Source: Haemophilus parainfluenzae (lineage in GTDB: Bacteria > Pseudomonadota > Gammaproteobacteria > Enterobacterales > Pasteurellaceae). From it: a stretch of 64,000 bases of DNA. The notes below the pieces were generated by a model. The model ran no database searches. It had not been told where the DNA came from and was given only the letters and a program-made list of their open reading frames with translations. Every line of letters starts with the position of its first letter. The first letter of the stretch is position 1. Shown here in pieces: positions 20,131 through 26,424 of the stretch. The translations under genes and the position numbers were made by a program. The stretch is from assembly GCF_036288925.1 (NCBI RefSeq), contig NZ_CP127167.1:310001-374000 (forward strand), given 5' to 3'.

Positions 20131-22499
20131 TGTACGCACTAGATAACAAATCCGGCATTAAACAAATGCCCGAAATCCCGGAAGTCTTCAGCAAAGAACC
20201 ACTTTGGTTTACCGAAGGGCGTGATGGCAACGACCCAAGTTACCCAGGTGCGCACTGGTTTAACATTATCCAAGCTGAATTGCTGAATGTGTTGAAAGAA
20301 GCCGGTATCGAACCTAATAAAACCGACCTTACTCAATTAGCCAAAGCCTTGCAAGTGCTATCGGGTCAAGTGGAAAGCATTGATGCACTGCGTGAGTTTG
20401 AGCCCACCCGAGAAGGACAACGCGTTGTAGTTAAAATGCCCCAAAGCCAATTTGGTTTTGGTTATGCTGTTTACTATTATGATGCCATTGATAATAAGAG
20501 TGCTGACAACAATGGCACCACTATTGTTACAAACAGCGGTAAACGCTGGAAACATCTTGAGCGAACTGGTGGTGGTAACGTTATTTTAGGTGCTGAAAGT
20601 GGTGGTCGTACAATTACCCAAGTAAGTGATCACAATAACCTAGTTGTTATTGGGCGTAAAGCAGCCGCGAATTTAACAAATGCTTATGAAAGTATTGCAA
20701 TAGGCAGTAGAGCGCTAGGTACTGCACAGGTTACACGAGATAACATTGCTATTGGAGCAGATAGTTTATACAACGTAAATGCAGACACCCCTTGGTATAG
20801 TCAATCACAAGTTAATGGTACGCGTAATATCGGTATCGGTGGTAATGCTGGTCGAGGAATTACAAGTGGCTATTCTAATATCGCTATTGGACGTAATGCT
20901 GGGCAAAACCTCGAATCTGGCTCATTAAATGTGGCATTAGGAGCTGGTGCAATTGGAGGTATTGTTCCCATTGGCTTTAGTGGAGACATCGAACATGCTC
21001 ATCCATCCAAAATCAAAGAAAGTGTAGCGGTCGGCGTTAATGCCCTAAATCAATATATTGCCTCATCAAGTAGCGTAGCTGTTGGTGCGTATGCTGCGGA
21101 AAAGCTGAAAAAAGGATTATACAACACCGCCATCGGATTCGGCTCACTCAAAGAACTTGAGGCCGATATCGCCCCTAACGGTGGGAGTATATTGTGGCAA
21201 GGTAATCAACAAGGAACATACAGTCAAAATGGCAATGTAATCACTTTAACTTTTGACAATCTGCAAGGTGCTGATGTTAACTGCATTGTTGGCGTTAGAT
21301 TGTTGGATGGTGCGGCTAAAACGCTTTTGAATGATGTAGTCCCCGCAAAGGTATTAAGCAAAACTGGTAATACTATCACAATACAATCATCAAAAAGCCT
21401 TAATACATCAGGTCAGGCAGAACTACGTTATGTTTACAGTAATACCGATGTTGGTGTGCTTGATACTAACCATAATACAGCAGTTGGTTTTGCTGCAATG
21501 AATAAAGCCACACGCGCTGGATTTTCGGTCGCCATTGGCGCGCATGCCCTAAAATTAGGGCATAGCTTATCCAGAGCCATTGCAATAGGGGCTAGCGCTT
21601 TTGAGCGAGGTAATCACACTAAAAGCATTGGTATCGGTTCGCACGCTGCTAATACTGCGAATACTAACAACGCCATTGTGATTGGTGTGAGCGCTATGGC
21701 AAACGCAAGCGAAGTCAATAACTCAATTATTATTGGCAATGATATCGGCGCGACTGGATCAGTTAACAATAAACTTGCAATTGGCAGTGGTTTTACGGGG
21801 GATTTACACAATAACCGTTACGGCATCAACATCCCTTTAAATCAAAATCCATTAGCAAACTTACATGTGCGACCGAAAGGTAGCCGAGGAAGCGGAAGAT
21901 CACAACCTGTTGATGGATTGTTAGTTGAGCATTCAGGTGTGGCTGTAGCGAAAATCGATGGTGGAAGCGGTGCTGATTTAGACCTTGTTAAAGGCGATGA
22001 TCTGAAATTTAGTATTCGATATCGAGCTGATAGCGATCTCACAACTATTATGGTAGGCAATGAGCATAGTTGGAAATTTTCAGGTTCGCACGAGTTATTC
22101 CCGGATAAAGATAATGTTAATGCCATTGGCAGACCATCCAGACGCTTAAAAAGTGTTTATGTAACCTCTCCTGATAAGCAGGAAAACGGAGATAAAGCAA
22201 TTACAGCAAAATGGTTTAGAGACCAATTTTCTCAAAATCTTGTTGCGAATAACGGCTGGCGCATTTTACCAAATGGTGAAATTGAGCAGTGGGGATTTTT
22301 AGATTTTCCAGAGCGAACATCACAAGCAACAATTCATTTTCCGATTGCATTCAATGAATGTTTTTTTGTAATCCCCATTGATATTAGTAATTCTGCAAGT
22401 GTTGTTGGTCTCAGTGTAGGAAATGTAAACAATACAAGTGCAACCATTAACAGTACAAAATATGCCGGCGGCATTAAATGGTATGCAAAGGGGAGATAA
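20130..22499 (+). CDS. Tail fibre with YadA-like head repeats
   Basis: A 789-residue fibre replacing Mu S. Residues 1-100 form the baseplate-attachment region (WFTEGRDGNDPSYPGAHWFN). From about 165 to 345 and 445 to 540 run 14-residue-scale repeats such as ESIAIGSRAL, DNIAIGADSL, SNIAIGRNAG and SVAVGAYAA, the SxAxG pattern of YadA adhesin heads, which fold as a trimeric left-handed beta-roll. A beta-rich insert lies at about 350-443. The C-terminus (NGWRILPNGEIEQWGFLDF...) resembles the gp53-like receptor-binding tip. No invertible alternative fibre or Gin-type invertase is seen. Confidence 0.88.
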   Translation: MYALDNKSGIKQMPEIPEVFSKEPLWFTEGRDGNDPSYPGAHWFNIIQAELLNVLKEAGIEPNKTDLTQLAKALQVLSGQVESIDALREFEPTREGQRVVVKMPQSQFGFGYAVYYYDAIDNKSADNNGTTIVTNSGKRWKHLERTGGGNVILGAESGGRTITQVSDHNNLVVIGRKAAANLTNAYESIAIGSRALGTAQVTRDNIAIGADSLYNVNADTPWYSQSQVNGTRNIGIGGNAGRGITSGYSNIAIGRNAGQNLESGSLNVALGAGAIGGIVPIGFSGDIEHAHPSKIKESVAVGVNALNQYIASSSSVAVGAYAAEKLKKGLYNTAIGFGSLKELEADIAPNGGSILWQGNQQGTYSQNGNVITLTFDNLQGADVNCIVGVRLLDGAAKTLLNDVVPAKVLSKTGNTITIQSSKSLNTSGQAELRYVYSNTDVGVLDTNHNTAVGFAAMNKATRAGFSVAIGAHALKLGHSLSRAIAIGASAFERGNHTKSIGIGSHAANTANTNNAIVIGVSAMANASEVNNSIIIGNDIGATGSVNNKLAIGSGFTGDLHNNRYGINIPLNQNPLANLHVRPKGSRGSGRSQPVDGLLVEHSGVAVAKIDGGSGADLDLVKGDDLKFSIRYRADSDLTTIMVGNEHSWKFSGSHELFPDKDNVNAIGRPSRRLKSVYVTSPDKQENGDKAITAKWFRDQFSQNLVANNGWRILPNGEIEQWGFLDFPERTSQATIHFPIAFNECFFVIPIDISNSASVVGLSVGNVNNTSATINSTKYAGGIKWYAKGR

Positions 22500-22501
22500 C
22501 A

Positions 22502-23131
22502 ATGAATTATTTTTATGACGTAGAAAATCAATGCTTTCTTGTTGAGGGTATTCACAGTATTCCCCAAGATGCGATTTCGGTGCGAGAAAGCGAATATCAG
22601 TTTTTAGTTGATGGTCGAGCCAAAGGTCGAGAAATTATCCTTTTTAATAATAATCTGACATTAAGCAATGTGAGACCTTCAGACTGCTATGACTTAATAA
22701 ATAATCAATGGGTGTTGAATAAAGAAAAACTTAGTCAGAAACTTATTTTAGAGCGCGACAAAATCCGCCAAGCAATCAACACTAAACGCGACCAAACCGA
22801 TGCAAGCGGTGTATTTGTGCCCCAACTTGGCAAGTGGGTTGATTCGAACGATAAGGCTTACCAAAACATTTTAGGTGTTAAAGCAAGCCTTGATTTGCTC
22901 GGCGATATGGAGATTGAGTGGACATGGGCGGACAACACTAGCAGCACCATCAACCGCCAAACATTAGCCGTAATCGTGGGCGCATTACTGCAAGCCAAAC
23001 AAGCTAACCACGCCAATGCAATTAAACACAAAGAGGCAGTAATGTTGGTAGACAATCCGCTTGAGTATGATTATTCAACGGGCTGGACTAAAACCTATAC
23101 TGATTTTATCAAGGAGCAAGGTAATGAGTAA
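22502..23131 (+). CDS. Tail fibre assembly-like protein (DUF4376-type C-terminus)
   Basis: A 209-residue protein after the fibre gene. It begins MNYFYDVENQCFLVEGIHSIP, followed by a DUF4376-like helical region (ERDKIRQAINTKRDQTDASGV ... WTWADNTSSTINRQTL). Proteins of this shape are annotated as fibre assembly or fibre-associated in Pasteurellaceae Mu-like phages. The start at 22502 lies 2 bp after the fibre stop. The 3' end overlaps the next gene by 8 bp. Confidence 0.75.
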   Translation: MNYFYDVENQCFLVEGIHSIPQDAISVRESEYQFLVDGRAKGREIILFNNNLTLSNVRPSDCYDLINNQWVLNKEKLSQKLILERDKIRQAINTKRDQTDASGVFVPQLGKWVDSNDKAYQNILGVKASLDLLGDMEIEWTWADNTSSTINRQTLAVIVGALLQAKQANHANAIKHKEAVMLVDNPLEYDYSTGWTKTYTDFIKEQGNE

Positions 23132-23561
23132 GATTTCTCTCGCTATGTACAAAGCCCGTGGTAATTGGGTCGATAAAATTATCCGCTTGTTTACGGGTAA
23201 ACCTTATAGCCATTGCGAGGTGGCAATCAAAACAGGTTTAAGCGTTTACCAATGCTATTCCTCAAGCCCTCGTGATGGTGGTGTACGTGTAAAAACAATG
23301 CGACTACCAGCGGATAAGTGGGATTTAATCCCAGTACACACAGATTCAGACATTGTGGACTTTTTTCAGCGTACTGGTGGCAAAAAATACGATTTTATCG
23401 GGGCAATTGGTTGCGTGTTACCGTTTAAGCAAAAGCCAAGTCGATATTATTGTAGTGAGTGGTGTTATGAGGCAATTTTGGGCGAAGCCCCGAAAAAGGC
23501 GTTAAGCCCGAATAAACTAGCTGAGTTGATAAAAGGAGGGTTTACCCTGCACAAAGTTTAG
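23124..23561 (+). CDS. YiiX/YebB-like papain-fold (NlpC/P60 clan) protein
   Basis: A 145-residue protein with the permuted papain-like layout of the YiiX/YebB group: a His in PYSHCEVAIKTG (about residue 30) and a Cys in RYYCSEWCYEAI (about residue 114), with acidic and glycine-rich segments between (YDFIGAIGCVLPF). Members may cleave amide or lipid bonds; the substrate here is unknown. AAGGAG precedes ATG 23124. Placed last in the tail module, it may act on the cell envelope or on virion proteins. Confidence 0.75.
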   Translation: MSKISLAMYKARGNWVDKIIRLFTGKPYSHCEVAIKTGLSVYQCYSSSPRDGGVRVKTMRLPADKWDLIPVHTDSDIVDFFQRTGGKKYDFIGAIGCVLPFKQKPSRYYCSEWCYEAILGEAPKKALSPNKLAELIKGGFTLHKV

Positions 23562-23576
23562 TTCAAAAAAAGAAAA

Positions 23577-23677
23577 GACGGCGATAATAACGGCACGGCA
23601 ATGCGCGTTATTACCAGCTACGCAGAACATGCCTGCATATAGCCATACGCCGCCTACCTTGCGCAAGGCGGGCGGAT
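23577..23677 (+). ncRNA. Structured RNA upstream of com, C4-antisense-RNA-like
   Basis: Three hairpins lie in about 100 nt. TAATAACG/CGTTATTA (23585-23592 with 23606-23613) extends by GCA/TGC. GCTA-GCAG/CTGC-TAGC spans 23617-23643. CCGCCTACCTT/AAGGCGGGCGG with loop GCGC (23650-23675) has one mismatch and one wobble. CGGCG at 23579 can also close the first two by pairing with CGCCG at 23648-23652, which excludes the third hairpin. One frame reads TPPTLRKAGGL, a peptide I associate with the phage Ash/Icd-C4 regions. Class assignment is inference. Confidence 0.5.
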
Positions 23678-23707
23678 TGTAACAAATCTTTTAATTATGG
23701 AGAATAT

Positions 23708-23827
23708 ATGCAGTCAATTAAAACAATCCGTTGCACATTTTGTAACAAATTATTGGCGAAAGTGGGTACAGTTGGTTATTTAGAAATCAAATGCCCACGC
23801 TGCAAAGTAATTAACTTTACTAAATAA
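23708..23827 (+). CDS. com: Com-like zinc finger translational activator
   Basis: A 39-residue protein with two CxxC pairs (C9, C12, C29, C32) matching phage Mu Com: IRCTFCNKLLAKVG ... YLEIKCPRCKVIN. In Mu, Com binds the mom mRNA and opens a hairpin that hides its start site. Here the gene sits at the same place, next to the right end, but the gene after it encodes an adenine methyltransferase. GGAG lies 5 bp before the ATG. Confidence 0.87.
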   Translation: MQSIKTIRCTFCNKLLAKVGTVGYLEIKCPRCKVINFTK

Positions 23828-23864
23828 CTTAATTTGAGTGTCGGAATACCTTGAGTATCAGAAC

Positions 23865-23887
23865 GCCATAGAAGGAAAAACTATGGC
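23865..23887 (+). promoter_or_regulatory. Translation-blocking hairpin at methyltransferase start
   Basis: GCCATAG (23865-23871) pairs perfectly with CTATGGC (23881-23887). The 9-nt loop is AAGGAAAAA, so the Shine-Dalgarno AAGGA sits in the loop and the ATG (23883) sits in the stem. A weaker ATAC/GTAT hairpin lies just upstream (about 23845-23858) and could be the Com-binding site. The layout parallels the Mu mom leader controlled by Com. Confidence 0.7.
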
Positions 23888-24728
23888 AAACAAAAAAACT
23901 TTTAAACAAGCCCCGCTACCGTTTATCGGGCAAAAAAGAATGTTTTTAAAACACGTGGAAATTGTGTTAAACAAACACATTGATGGAGAAGGTGATGGTT
24001 GGACGATTGTGGACGTATTTGGAGGTAGTGGCTTGTTAAGCCATACCGCCAAGCGACTGAAGCCAAAAGCAACCGTAATTTATAACGATTTTGATGGCTA
24101 CGCCGAACGATTAAAGCACATTGACGACATCAACAGATTACGCCAAATTATCTTTAATTACTTACACGGTATTATACCAAAAAACGGACGATTAAGCAAA
24201 GAAATTAAAGCAGAAATTATCAATAAAATCAATGATTTCAAGGGTTATAAAGACCTGAACTGTTTAGCTTCTTGGTTATTATTTTCTGGACAGCAAGTTG
24301 GCAGTATTGAGGCGTTATTTGCCAAAGATTTTTGGCATTGTGTGCGCCAAAGCGATTACCCAACGGCTGAGGGCTATTTAGATGGCATTGAGGTTATAAG
24401 TGAGTCGTTCCATAAGCTAATCCCCCGCTATCAAAATCAAGAAAAGGTGCTACTATTACTTGATCCACCTTATTTATGCACTCGCCAAGAGAGCTACAAA
24501 CAAGGCACTTACTTTGATTTAATTGATTTTTTACGGCTAATCAATTTGACGAAGCCACCTTATATCTTCTTCAGTAGCACGAAAAGTGAGTTTATCCGTT
24601 ATTTGGACTATATGCAGGAGAGTAAAACGGATAATTGGGAGTCGTTTGAAGGATATGAACGAATTGTAGTTAAAGCATCTGCTTCCAAAGATGGGATTTA
24701 TGAAGATAATATGATTTATAAGTTCTAA
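23883..24728 (+). CDS. D12-class DNA adenine methyltransferase in mom position
   Basis: A 281-residue N6-adenine methyltransferase of the Dam/D12 class. Motif X-like PFIGQKRMF lies at the N-terminus, the AdoMet motif DVFGGSGLLSH at about residue 40, and the catalytic DPPY in LLLLDPPYLCTR at about residue 195. ATG 23883 with GAAGGA is preferred over GTG 23838, which lacks a ribosome-binding site. Located after com, it probably modifies phage DNA late in infection to evade restriction. It ends just before the TTTAAA cluster and the phage right end. Confidence 0.87.
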   Translation: MANKKTFKQAPLPFIGQKRMFLKHVEIVLNKHIDGEGDGWTIVDVFGGSGLLSHTAKRLKPKATVIYNDFDGYAERLKHIDDINRLRQIIFNYLHGIIPKNGRLSKEIKAEIINKINDFKGYKDLNCLASWLLFSGQQVGSIEALFAKDFWHCVRQSDYPTAEGYLDGIEVISESFHKLIPRYQNQEKVLLLLDPPYLCTRQESYKQGTYFDLIDFLRLINLTKPPYIFFSSTKSEFIRYLDYMQESKTDNWESFEGYERIVVKASASKDGIYEDNMIYKF

Positions 24729-25364: not shown

Positions 25365-25664
25365 GATCTGCCCTCCAAAAGTTGGACAGGTTAGTTAACT
25401 TAAATATTGAGCTCGGTATTGCACTGGGCTCAATCCTTTGAAAGCAAGTTTAATGTGTTTTTGGTTGTAATACACTAAATATTCTTCAATTTCAGCCTGT
25501 AATTCAGCGATTGAATGATAAGTTCGTGAGTAAAAACACGCTGATTTTAGTATCGCAAAAAAACTTTCAATCGGCTGGTCTCTTTTGCGCCACGAATAAA
25601 TTCCTTCGCCAGCATATTGGAAGAGCCGTGTTTGTTTCCGCTGCTCTTTAAAACCAGAGTCTTC
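25365..25664 (-). mobile_element. IS3-family (IS150 group) remnant, transposase C-terminus
   Basis: On the minus strand the last ~90 codons of an orfB-type transposase are readable, with PIESFFAILKSACFYSR (catalytic Glu region), EEYLVYYNQKHIKLAFKGLSPVQYRAQ and a stop at 25395. The terminal inverted repeat TGATCTGCCCTCCAAAAGT begins near 25364-25366 and is closely related to the ends of the complete element at 61273. The N-terminal half and other end are missing; the break coincides with the end of the decarboxylase gene. Confidence 0.8.
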
Positions 25665-26424
25665 ATAAGCTCAGATACTCCTCATCGATGACCGGTTCAC
25701 ACCATTCGTTCGAGGCGTTCTCTCCCTCGATCTCAAAGGCAAGATGTGAAAACCAGCTGTCCTTCTGGGCTCCATGCCAATGCTTTACATTCGCCGGAAT
25801 ATGAATCACTGTACCGGGAAGGATCTCCTGCGCAGGCTTACCTTCTTCCTGATACCAGCCTTTTCCGCCGACACCGATCAACATCTGGCCGCCGCCTTTT
25901 GATGCATGATGGATATGCCAGTTGTTTCGGCAGCCCGGTTCGAAGGTCACGTTGAAGATCATCACCTGCTCTGTTGATACGGGAGCCAGATAGCTCTGTC
26001 CGACGAAATACTGAGCAAAGCCGTCGTTGGGGTCGCCAATAGGGAAGAAGATCTCCTTCTGGAATCTTTCCTTCTCCGTCAGCGGTTCCATTCCCTCATC
26101 ATAAATACCGTTCGCTTTCGCAAGATTAAAAACCGCCCAGGCCTTCGGCCAGCCAGCGTAAAAAGCAACATGCGTCACGATGGCCGCAAACTACTGCTTC
26201 GTCACACCGTGTGCTTTCGCGTTCTGAATGTGGTAGACGAGAGAGGAATCCGTTATGCCCTGCGACATCAGTGCCACCATCGTGATTACGCAGCGGGTCT
26301 TCAGATCAATATCCTGATTGTTCCAGTTTTCACCGAATAGCACATCATCATTAAAATGGGCAAACTCCGGAGCGAACTCTCCCAGTGCCTTTCTTCCGGC
26401 TGTTTGTACGATTTTTTCTGACAT
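25663..26424 (-). pseudogene. Carboxymuconolactone decarboxylase-cupin gene with in-frame amber stop
   Basis: Two consecutive frames on the minus strand form one gene interrupted only by TAG at 26191-26193, in the codon run AAG CAG TAG TTT GCG. The N-terminal part (MSEKIVQTAGRKALGEFAPEF) plus the segment after the stop (THVAFYAGWPKAWAVF) is a carboxymuconolactone decarboxylase-like domain. The C-terminal part is a cupin with NNWHIHHA and VKHWHGA metal-ligand motifs. The start at 26424 has GGAGGA upstream. Base composition is GC-richer than the core, indicating acquisition. It could also be restarted or suppressed, or the stop could be a sequencing error. Confidence 0.8.

Follow-up and report, generated by a model that had tools for sequence, protein, structure and literature searches.

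In Haemophilus parainfluenzae, the right end of a Mu-like prophage has a com gene before a DNA methyltransferase gene that is not mom, and the locus raises the question of how the start of such an enzyme could be governed by Com, which in phage Mu is a translational activator (PMC6483171). We analyzed a window of 64,000 nt (assembly GCF_036288925.1, contig NZ_CP127167.1, positions 310,001-374,000 of the forward strand); coordinates are those of the window unless genome positions are named, and com, the leader elements, and the methyltransferase all lie on its plus strand. From the sequence and its relatives, we consider it very probable that the locus is a Com-controlled translational ON switch for an N6-adenine methyltransferase.

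com and the methyltransferase at the prophage right end

The com gene (23708-23827) encodes a C4 zinc-ribbon protein of 39 aa that matches PF10122 (E = 4.4e-10) and phrog_6417, “translational regulator” (E = 3.4e-12), bearing out an earlier note on this DNA, which had recognized a 39-residue Com-like C4 protein ahead of the methyltransferase. The protein lacks the C-terminal tail present in Mu Com and is identical at all 39 residues to the Com of Haemophilus sputorum CCUG 13788 (locus L011). The Com residues named in the accessible part of PMC6483171 (Arg8, Asn13, Lys14, and Arg31) correspond to R8, N13, K14, and R31 of the window protein. In a class sample of 369 genomes, PF10122 was matched in 5, with the matches at L240 and L241 looking like unrelated zinc proteins.

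Downstream, at 23883-24728, lies the gene for a 281-aa D12-class DNA adenine methyltransferase of the Hia5/Hin1523 kind, with FGGSG and DPPY motifs. Its sole Pfam match is PF02086 (E = 1.2e-5; at 25.6 bits, above the cut-off of 22), in keeping with the class assigned earlier, and it also matches phrog_56, DNA methyltransferase (E = 6.3e-40); Mu mom gives PF25680, so the window gene is not Mom. A search for relatives of solved structure returned none at E 0.01. The enzyme is 68% identical to that of H. aegyptius NCTC8502 (L004), which, from the strain, we take to be Hia5, and the L004 gene has a com gene and the same kind of leader. Hin1523, Nma1821, and Hia5 have extremely short adenine targets, according to the accessible part of PMC5399793. 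The window enzyme has Hia5/Hin1523-type homology and a D12 domain and is probably a promiscuous N6-adenine methyltransferase. An upstream in-frame GTG at 23838 was rejected as the true start: it lies in the first heptad of the hairpin described below, and most com-linked relatives start at the matching ATG. The gene start bears no tetranucleotide tract, so the window gene does not fall among phase-variable (simple-repeat) methyltransferases.

The two genes are the last at the right end of a Mu-like prophage, as had been proposed: a Mu-transposase-C domain lies at genome positions 302935-303141, about 31 kb to the left of com (genome position 333708), and terminase, head, sheath, tape-measure, and baseplate genes lie between them. 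In Mu, mom is under Dam control, with upstream GATC sites for Dam-dependent transcription; the window, in contrast, has no GATC site within 22039-24461, and the Dam control known for mom is therefore not part of this locus. To the right of the prophage, 25376-25665 resembles, by eye, a broken transposase-type fragment that ends abruptly before a cupin-like frame (25663-26178).

Two hairpins in the leader

The leader between the com stop and the methyltransferase ATG is 55 nt long, and 37 nt 3' of the stop begins a perfect 7-bp stem, GCCATAG/CTATGGC (23865-23871 with 23881-23887), whose 3' arm holds the start codon (ATG, 23883-23885), an arrangement kept in relatives. Its loop, AAGGAAAAA, contains a Shine-Dalgarno-like AAGGA (23872-23876) with a calculated mean unpaired probability of 1.00; every element of this translation-inhibiting stem that the earlier note described is present in the sequence. 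The stem-loop pattern occurs once in the 64 kb and in none of 100 shuffles. As a 33-nt hairpin it is calculated at -9.5 kcal/mol (z of -6.73; 0 of 200 shuffles as good), the 73-nt context still stands out (z of -2.69; 2 of 200), and in the 141-nt context, z is no better than -1.46 and 19 of 200 shuffles fold as well, so folding energy alone is not decisive, and conservation is. The unexceptional 141-nt fold is also what would favor a chance hairpin or a terminator with no regulatory role, but no U-run follows the stem, as a terminator would have, and the comparison of leaders presented below speaks against chance.

Immediately 5' of the start-codon stem, and in part overlapping it, lies an element absent from the earlier note, a two-tier hairpin of four GANNNNC heptads (23836-23867) that was recognized by pattern search and by covariation in 42 leaders and that we regard as the Com-recognition hairpin. 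The heptads GAGTGTC (23836-23842), GAATACC (23844-23850), GAGTATC (23853-23859), and GAACGCC (23861-23867) are separated by G, TT, and A, respectively, and pair through their positions 3-6: heptads 2 and 3 form the inner stem (23846-23849 with 23855-23858), which closes a CUUGA loop and carries the CC(N)2GAG Com motif, and heptads 1 and 4 form the outer stem (23838-23841 with 23863-23866), whose 3' strand shares 23865-23866 with the start-codon stem. The four-heptad pattern has a single match in the window and none in 100 window shuffles.

The inner tier agrees with what is known of Com recognition. SELEX with Haemophilus sputorum Com gave NGAGNNCC(N)2-3GAGNNCCNN, with a CC(N)2-3GAG loop motif, a closing C-G pair, and core repeats that flank a 3-4-nt stem (PMC6483171). 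Heptads 2 and 3 of the window (GAATACC-TT-GAGTATC) match this motif except at one compensated pair (A-U for G-C), and the loop sequence CC-UU-GAG (23849-23855) stands 5' of the inhibiting stem. The accessible part of PMC6483171 compares the SELEX motif with Mu mom RNA and does not mention a native leader. By analogy, the Com of this prophage would bind the four-heptad leader RNA. Taken from the window alone, the inner and outer stems together amount to only -3.3 kcal/mol, and the lowest-energy fold has a different 5' hairpin in place of the heptad pairing; we set that fold aside because the alignment favors the heptad pairing.

Covariation, com linkage, and gene exchange

Relatives of the methyltransferase were drawn from genome_contigs (65 loci), viral_contigs (80 of 125 kept), and 140 Pasteurellaceae genomes (65 with a match, giving 30 loci). 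In the search for their leaders, all stem positions were free, and each heptad was fixed at its G, A, and C alone. Of 99 pattern matches, 9 were dropped for want of an acceptable start (L042, L064, and L146, with six more from the L162 repeat tract), and the unique leaders obtained number 40, of which 33 precede D12 genes and 7 another methylase. The inner stem is fully paired in 15 of 16 distinct heptad combinations (shuffled-partner mean, 6.4; 0 of 5,000 as high) and the outer stem in 7 of 8 (4.2 on average in shuffles, a fraction of 0.027 of which reach 7 or more), the latter support coming from only 8 distinct combinations. Outer-stem pairing is complete in 39 of the 40 leaders, and in most, its 3' strand is also the base of the start-codon stem.

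In an alignment of 42 rows (the 40 unique leaders together with L006 and L015), 94.2% of cells are paired and 105 have changed on both sides, compared with 38.9 in shuffles (0 of 500); pairing falls to 17-50% when partners are slid, further pair types are not above shuffles (19 versus 19.1), and RNAalifold recovers the same helices unprompted. Mapped by parsimony onto a methyltransferase tree of 30 tips, the inner stem shows 24 compensated double changes, 6 single changes that keep pairing, and 0 breaks, and the outer stem shows 5 double changes, 8 single kept changes, and 0 breaks. The tree covers 30 of the 42 rows, omitting 8 before the other methylase, L052 and L053 with truncated D12 frames, and L085 and L185, which failed at the expected start; the count of zero breaks accordingly excludes L053, in which one inner pair is broken.

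Counted upward from the G of ATG, the start-codon stem has 5 bp or more in 38 of the 40 unique leaders, the exceptions being L009, with 4 bp, and L024, which pairs in a shifted register. Its columns 41-43 hardly vary in the alignment, and its covariation thus rests on column pair 44-61 (on the tree, 3 compensated double changes, 0 single kept, and 2 breaks) and on the extensions beyond CAU:AUG, which covary over 28 distinct spacers (79 versus a shuffle mean of 52.2; 0 of 5,000). The earlier note had proposed a search for compensatory changes in the leaders of other loci and had held that a stem not conserved in homologous loci would tell against its reading; the start-codon stem is kept, with changed extensions, and the Com-recognition stems covary strongly, so the reading survives this test. 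Covariation of this extent, together with the rarity of the stem-loop in shuffled sequence, leads us to reject a chance hairpin.

An Rfam search gave one sub-threshold match (11.5 bits), and R1, the model built from the leaders, matched 8 genomes in the class sample of 369, its own genome included (best outside it, 30.6 bits); no com was found in the 8 rows examined.

Within the methyltransferase family, com and leader occur together. Among 82 distinct D12 loci (identity of about 57% or more and at least 450 nt of upstream sequence; com detected by an HMM of alignment A1 and the leader by R1, with the 42 source rows of R1 among the positives), 48 have both com and leader, 0 have com only, 0 have the leader only, and 34 have neither. 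This tally leaves out loci below about 57% identity (30 of 180 collected, several with com), repeats of the window locus, and L067, and 4 of 86 distinct loci were dropped for too little upstream sequence. The com gene and leader stand directly before the D12 gene in 38 of the 82 loci and about 720-810 nt upstream, before another methylase or a remnant, in 10. Outside the tally, L235 is an exception, in which an 84-aa D12 frame is preceded by a partial leader (32.6 bits) and no com was found in the stretch examined, and in com-linked D12 loci below 57% identity, the two-tier leader is mostly missing. A leader linked to com in 48 of 48 cases, against 0 of 34 among the other loci, makes a chance or terminator hairpin scarcely credible.

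Ordinary translational coupling, in which ribosomes ending com open the downstream start and the Com protein has no role, would draw on the position of com directly upstream on the same strand. The 55 nt from the com stop to the ATG and the 37 nt before the stem begins both speak against it, the covariation of the heptads and their match to the SELEX motif would be left unexplained, and in 10 distinct loci, the leader precedes a gene other than D12; we therefore judge coupling very unlikely.

The com-less loci have a feature of their own: 20 of the 34 carry a tetranucleotide repeat at the gene start, although some of the 34 match only from enzyme residue 13 to 59 (e.g., L022, L087, and L152), so that their true start may be elsewhere. 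The genome analyzed here contains, besides the window copy, a second com-leader copy (L067) and a third methyltransferase copy behind a long (ACAA)n tract (L237; genome positions 1509700-1511400), which is probably phase-variable; the only two PF10122 matches in the genome both lie away from L237.

Four-heptad hairpins were also seen away from com. Those at L228:1079-1130, L229:1693-1744, L230:1039-1090, and L232:1616-1679 have no com, start-codon stem, or gene start; they are followed, after 126-184 nt, by antirepressor-like genes (PF08346 AntA in L228 and L230, with a Mor-family gene further on in L228) and directly precede matches to Rfam sRNA-Xcc1 (RF02221; 67.0, 66.2, and 63.9 bits, and in L228, 49.4 bits, under the cut-off). 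Com may have a second target in these hairpins, or they may be palindromes with no connection to it. Another such hairpin, at L233:1679-1743, follows closely on a 332-aa open frame, and neither a gene start nor com was found there.

The other methylase behind the leader is C5-type (PF00145, E = 4.8e-6; phrog_2882, E = 1.9e-108) and has no significant similarity to the D12 enzyme. It is up to 59% identical to a “putative C5 methylase” of Streptococcus phages, and for the gene at L012:1762-2517 and its relatives, 114 of 119 matched phage records are named Streptococcus, Enterococcus, or Lactococcus, which suggests transfer between distant phages. L025 (D12) and L133 (C5-type) are identical over 95 nt upstream and 58 nt from heptad 1 through the start codon (153 nt) and then diverge, and between L011 and the window, com is 100% and the leader 96.9% identical, with the methyltransferase DNA at only 68-78%. 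The idea that the switch was kept while the gene behind it was exchanged is thus borne out by identical leaders before unrelated genes.

Across the 140 Pasteurellaceae genomes, R1 has 60 matches in 38 genomes. Fifteen of them, chosen mostly for the absence of an adjoining full-length D12 gene, were examined singly. Behind 5 stands the C5-type gene (in one case only as a 39-aa remnant), behind 4 a D12 frame (short in three cases), and behind 1 a D12 gene whose start is damaged; the remaining 5 lack a gene start. L231:899-2373 has the tandem order com, leader, C5-type methylase, com, leader, and D12 frame (94 aa), so that both genes have a com and a heptad leader to themselves; the start-codon stem of the second leader is weak.

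A model for the switch and its relation to known systems

In the OFF state of our model, the 7-bp stem would keep the AUG paired, with the Shine-Dalgarno sequence ready in the loop. Com, made from the gene just upstream, would bind the GA-containing loops of the four-heptad hairpin, and the hairpin so held would weaken the start-codon stem, with which its 3' strand shares 23865-23866, and free the AUG. The enzyme would be made only after Com has built up, late in the lytic cycle, and would methylate progeny DNA against restriction while the lysogen chromosome is left unmarked. That Com activates translation at this locus, we infer from Mu. The opposite sign, a Com-repressed OFF switch or an autoregulatory site, is highly improbable: Mu Com activates (PMC6483171), and further repression would be redundant where the stem already hides the AUG.

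Calculated folds suggest strand competition between the outer stem and the start-codon stem. The probability that the AUG is unpaired is calculated at 3e-5 to 1e-3 and reaches 0.13-0.29 with the two-tier hairpin enforced, because the start-codon stem loses two base pairs to the outer stem and goes from -9.5 to -2.8 kcal/mol. Such competition could not be universal, since the stem base shares no pairs with the outer stem in L016 and only one in L005, L015, L035, L036, L051, and L140. L016, which nevertheless keeps com and the leader, would suit a different mechanism, proposed for Mu, in which Com itself melts the stem and the outer stem merely presents the binding loops; in Mu, Com binding destabilizes the inhibiting stem (PMC6483171). 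Against melting by Com stand the near-constant outer stem, whose 3' strand doubles as the stem base in most leaders, and the lack in the window Com of the tail that, in a suggestion made in the accessible part of PMC6483171, may be needed for RNA rearrangement in Mu. We regard such melting as possible but somewhat doubtful.

We are evenly divided over a broader form of the strand-competition model, a portable, protein-triggered strand-exchange switch in which tail-less Com would clamp the two-tier hairpin and pull the base off the start-codon stem. Such a switch would be a plug-in for unrelated DNA-modifying enzymes, including the C5-type methylase shared with phages of Gram-positive bacteria, and com with its leader and the tetranucleotide tract would be alternative ways to silence one dangerous enzyme.

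A simpler hairpin recurs at more distant com loci. At 21 com loci of other groups (among them Mu, B3, UMP151, GEC_PNG14, Smp131, KS5, phiARM81ld, ST2-1pr, Chuche, Moraxella, Neisseria, and Dichelobacter), a four-pair hairpin of the form N4-[C/T]N2-3GA-N4 was found no more than 110 nt from the start in 19 (shuffles predict 2.0), all but L038 and Chuche, whereas among com-less D12 controls, it is present in 1 of 25 (1.3 expected). Most of these loci have one hairpin, the two-tier form being mostly missing, and the downstream genes examined encode Mom, D12, or PF01555 enzymes. Over 42 loci outside the model (distant com and com-less), R1 has 20 matches at E values of up to 10, of which 3 are at or near 0.01 (L158 and L048 twice); the best at a leader is L158 (21.9 bits), and the Mu leader is matched at the right place with 13.7 bits (E = 0.34). 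From reading the leaders, some distant stems seem to hide the Shine-Dalgarno sequence instead of the start codon. In L075 (phiARM81ld) and L039 (Dichelobacter), by eye, the Com hairpin and a stem hiding the Shine-Dalgarno sequence (CUCCGAG/CUCGGAG and GCAUCC/GGAUGC, respectively) share bases within about 35 nt before the start, so that only one of the two could form.

The closest described system is com-mom of Mu, whose leader has the hairpin ATGC-CTGCGA-GCAT followed by a stem with CCCAC/GTGGG that holds the GTG start. Both loci have a C4 Com gene and a hairpin with a CC(N)2-3GAG loop directly 5' of a start-codon stem, with the Shine-Dalgarno sequence toward the loop of that stem. They differ in the target (a D12 methyltransferase rather than Mom), in the end of com, which precedes the leader in the window but overlaps mom in Mu, and in the two nested heptad pairs and tail-less Com of the window, compared with one pair and a tailed Com in Mu.

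That FluMu-like prophages can carry a methyltransferase where mom would stand, and that Com is linked to other genes in Pseudomonas, is already known. Drozdz et al. reportedly described, in 2012, such a non-mom enzyme at the mom position in FluMu-type prophages and Hia5, Hin1523, and Nma1821 as non-specific adenine methyltransferases; by sequence, the window enzyme belongs to the same family. In Pseudomonas, com-like genes precede lectin-like bacteriocin, tailocin-cargo, and other genes, a likewise varied downstream set, and the general role of Com is left to explore (PMC6240691); the cargo there is not a methyltransferase, and no RNA element is described in the accessible part of that paper. 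B3, KS5, Smp131, phiARM81ld, UMP151, and Chuche share with the window a com frame, which in some has gone unannotated, with a DNA methylase gene after it, but their methylases are D12 of other kinds (UMP151 and B3) or PF01555, com overlaps the methylase in 5 of the 6, and some of their stems appear to hide the Shine-Dalgarno sequence and not the start codon. In the full-text literature searched, which left most subscription papers aside, we found no description of the two-tier covarying leader, of its tie to com, of its occurrence before methylases unrelated to one another, or of the alternation with repeat tracts, nor of the regulation of enzymes of the Hia5/Hin1523/Nma1821 kind by such a leader.

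The mom switch is known mainly from Mu, and more than 40 natural leaders now give a recognition rule by covariation, in agreement with the published SELEX for H. sputorum Com (PMC6483171). The covariation series and this agreement together make a decades-old mechanism testable in a compact, tail-less, and non-overlapping format. The leader suggests a way for a phage to hold a near-non-specific adenine methylase silent until it is required (enzymes of this Hia5 kind serve in chromatin mapping; PMC9789962), and the leader series predicts which genes Com may control in other phages.
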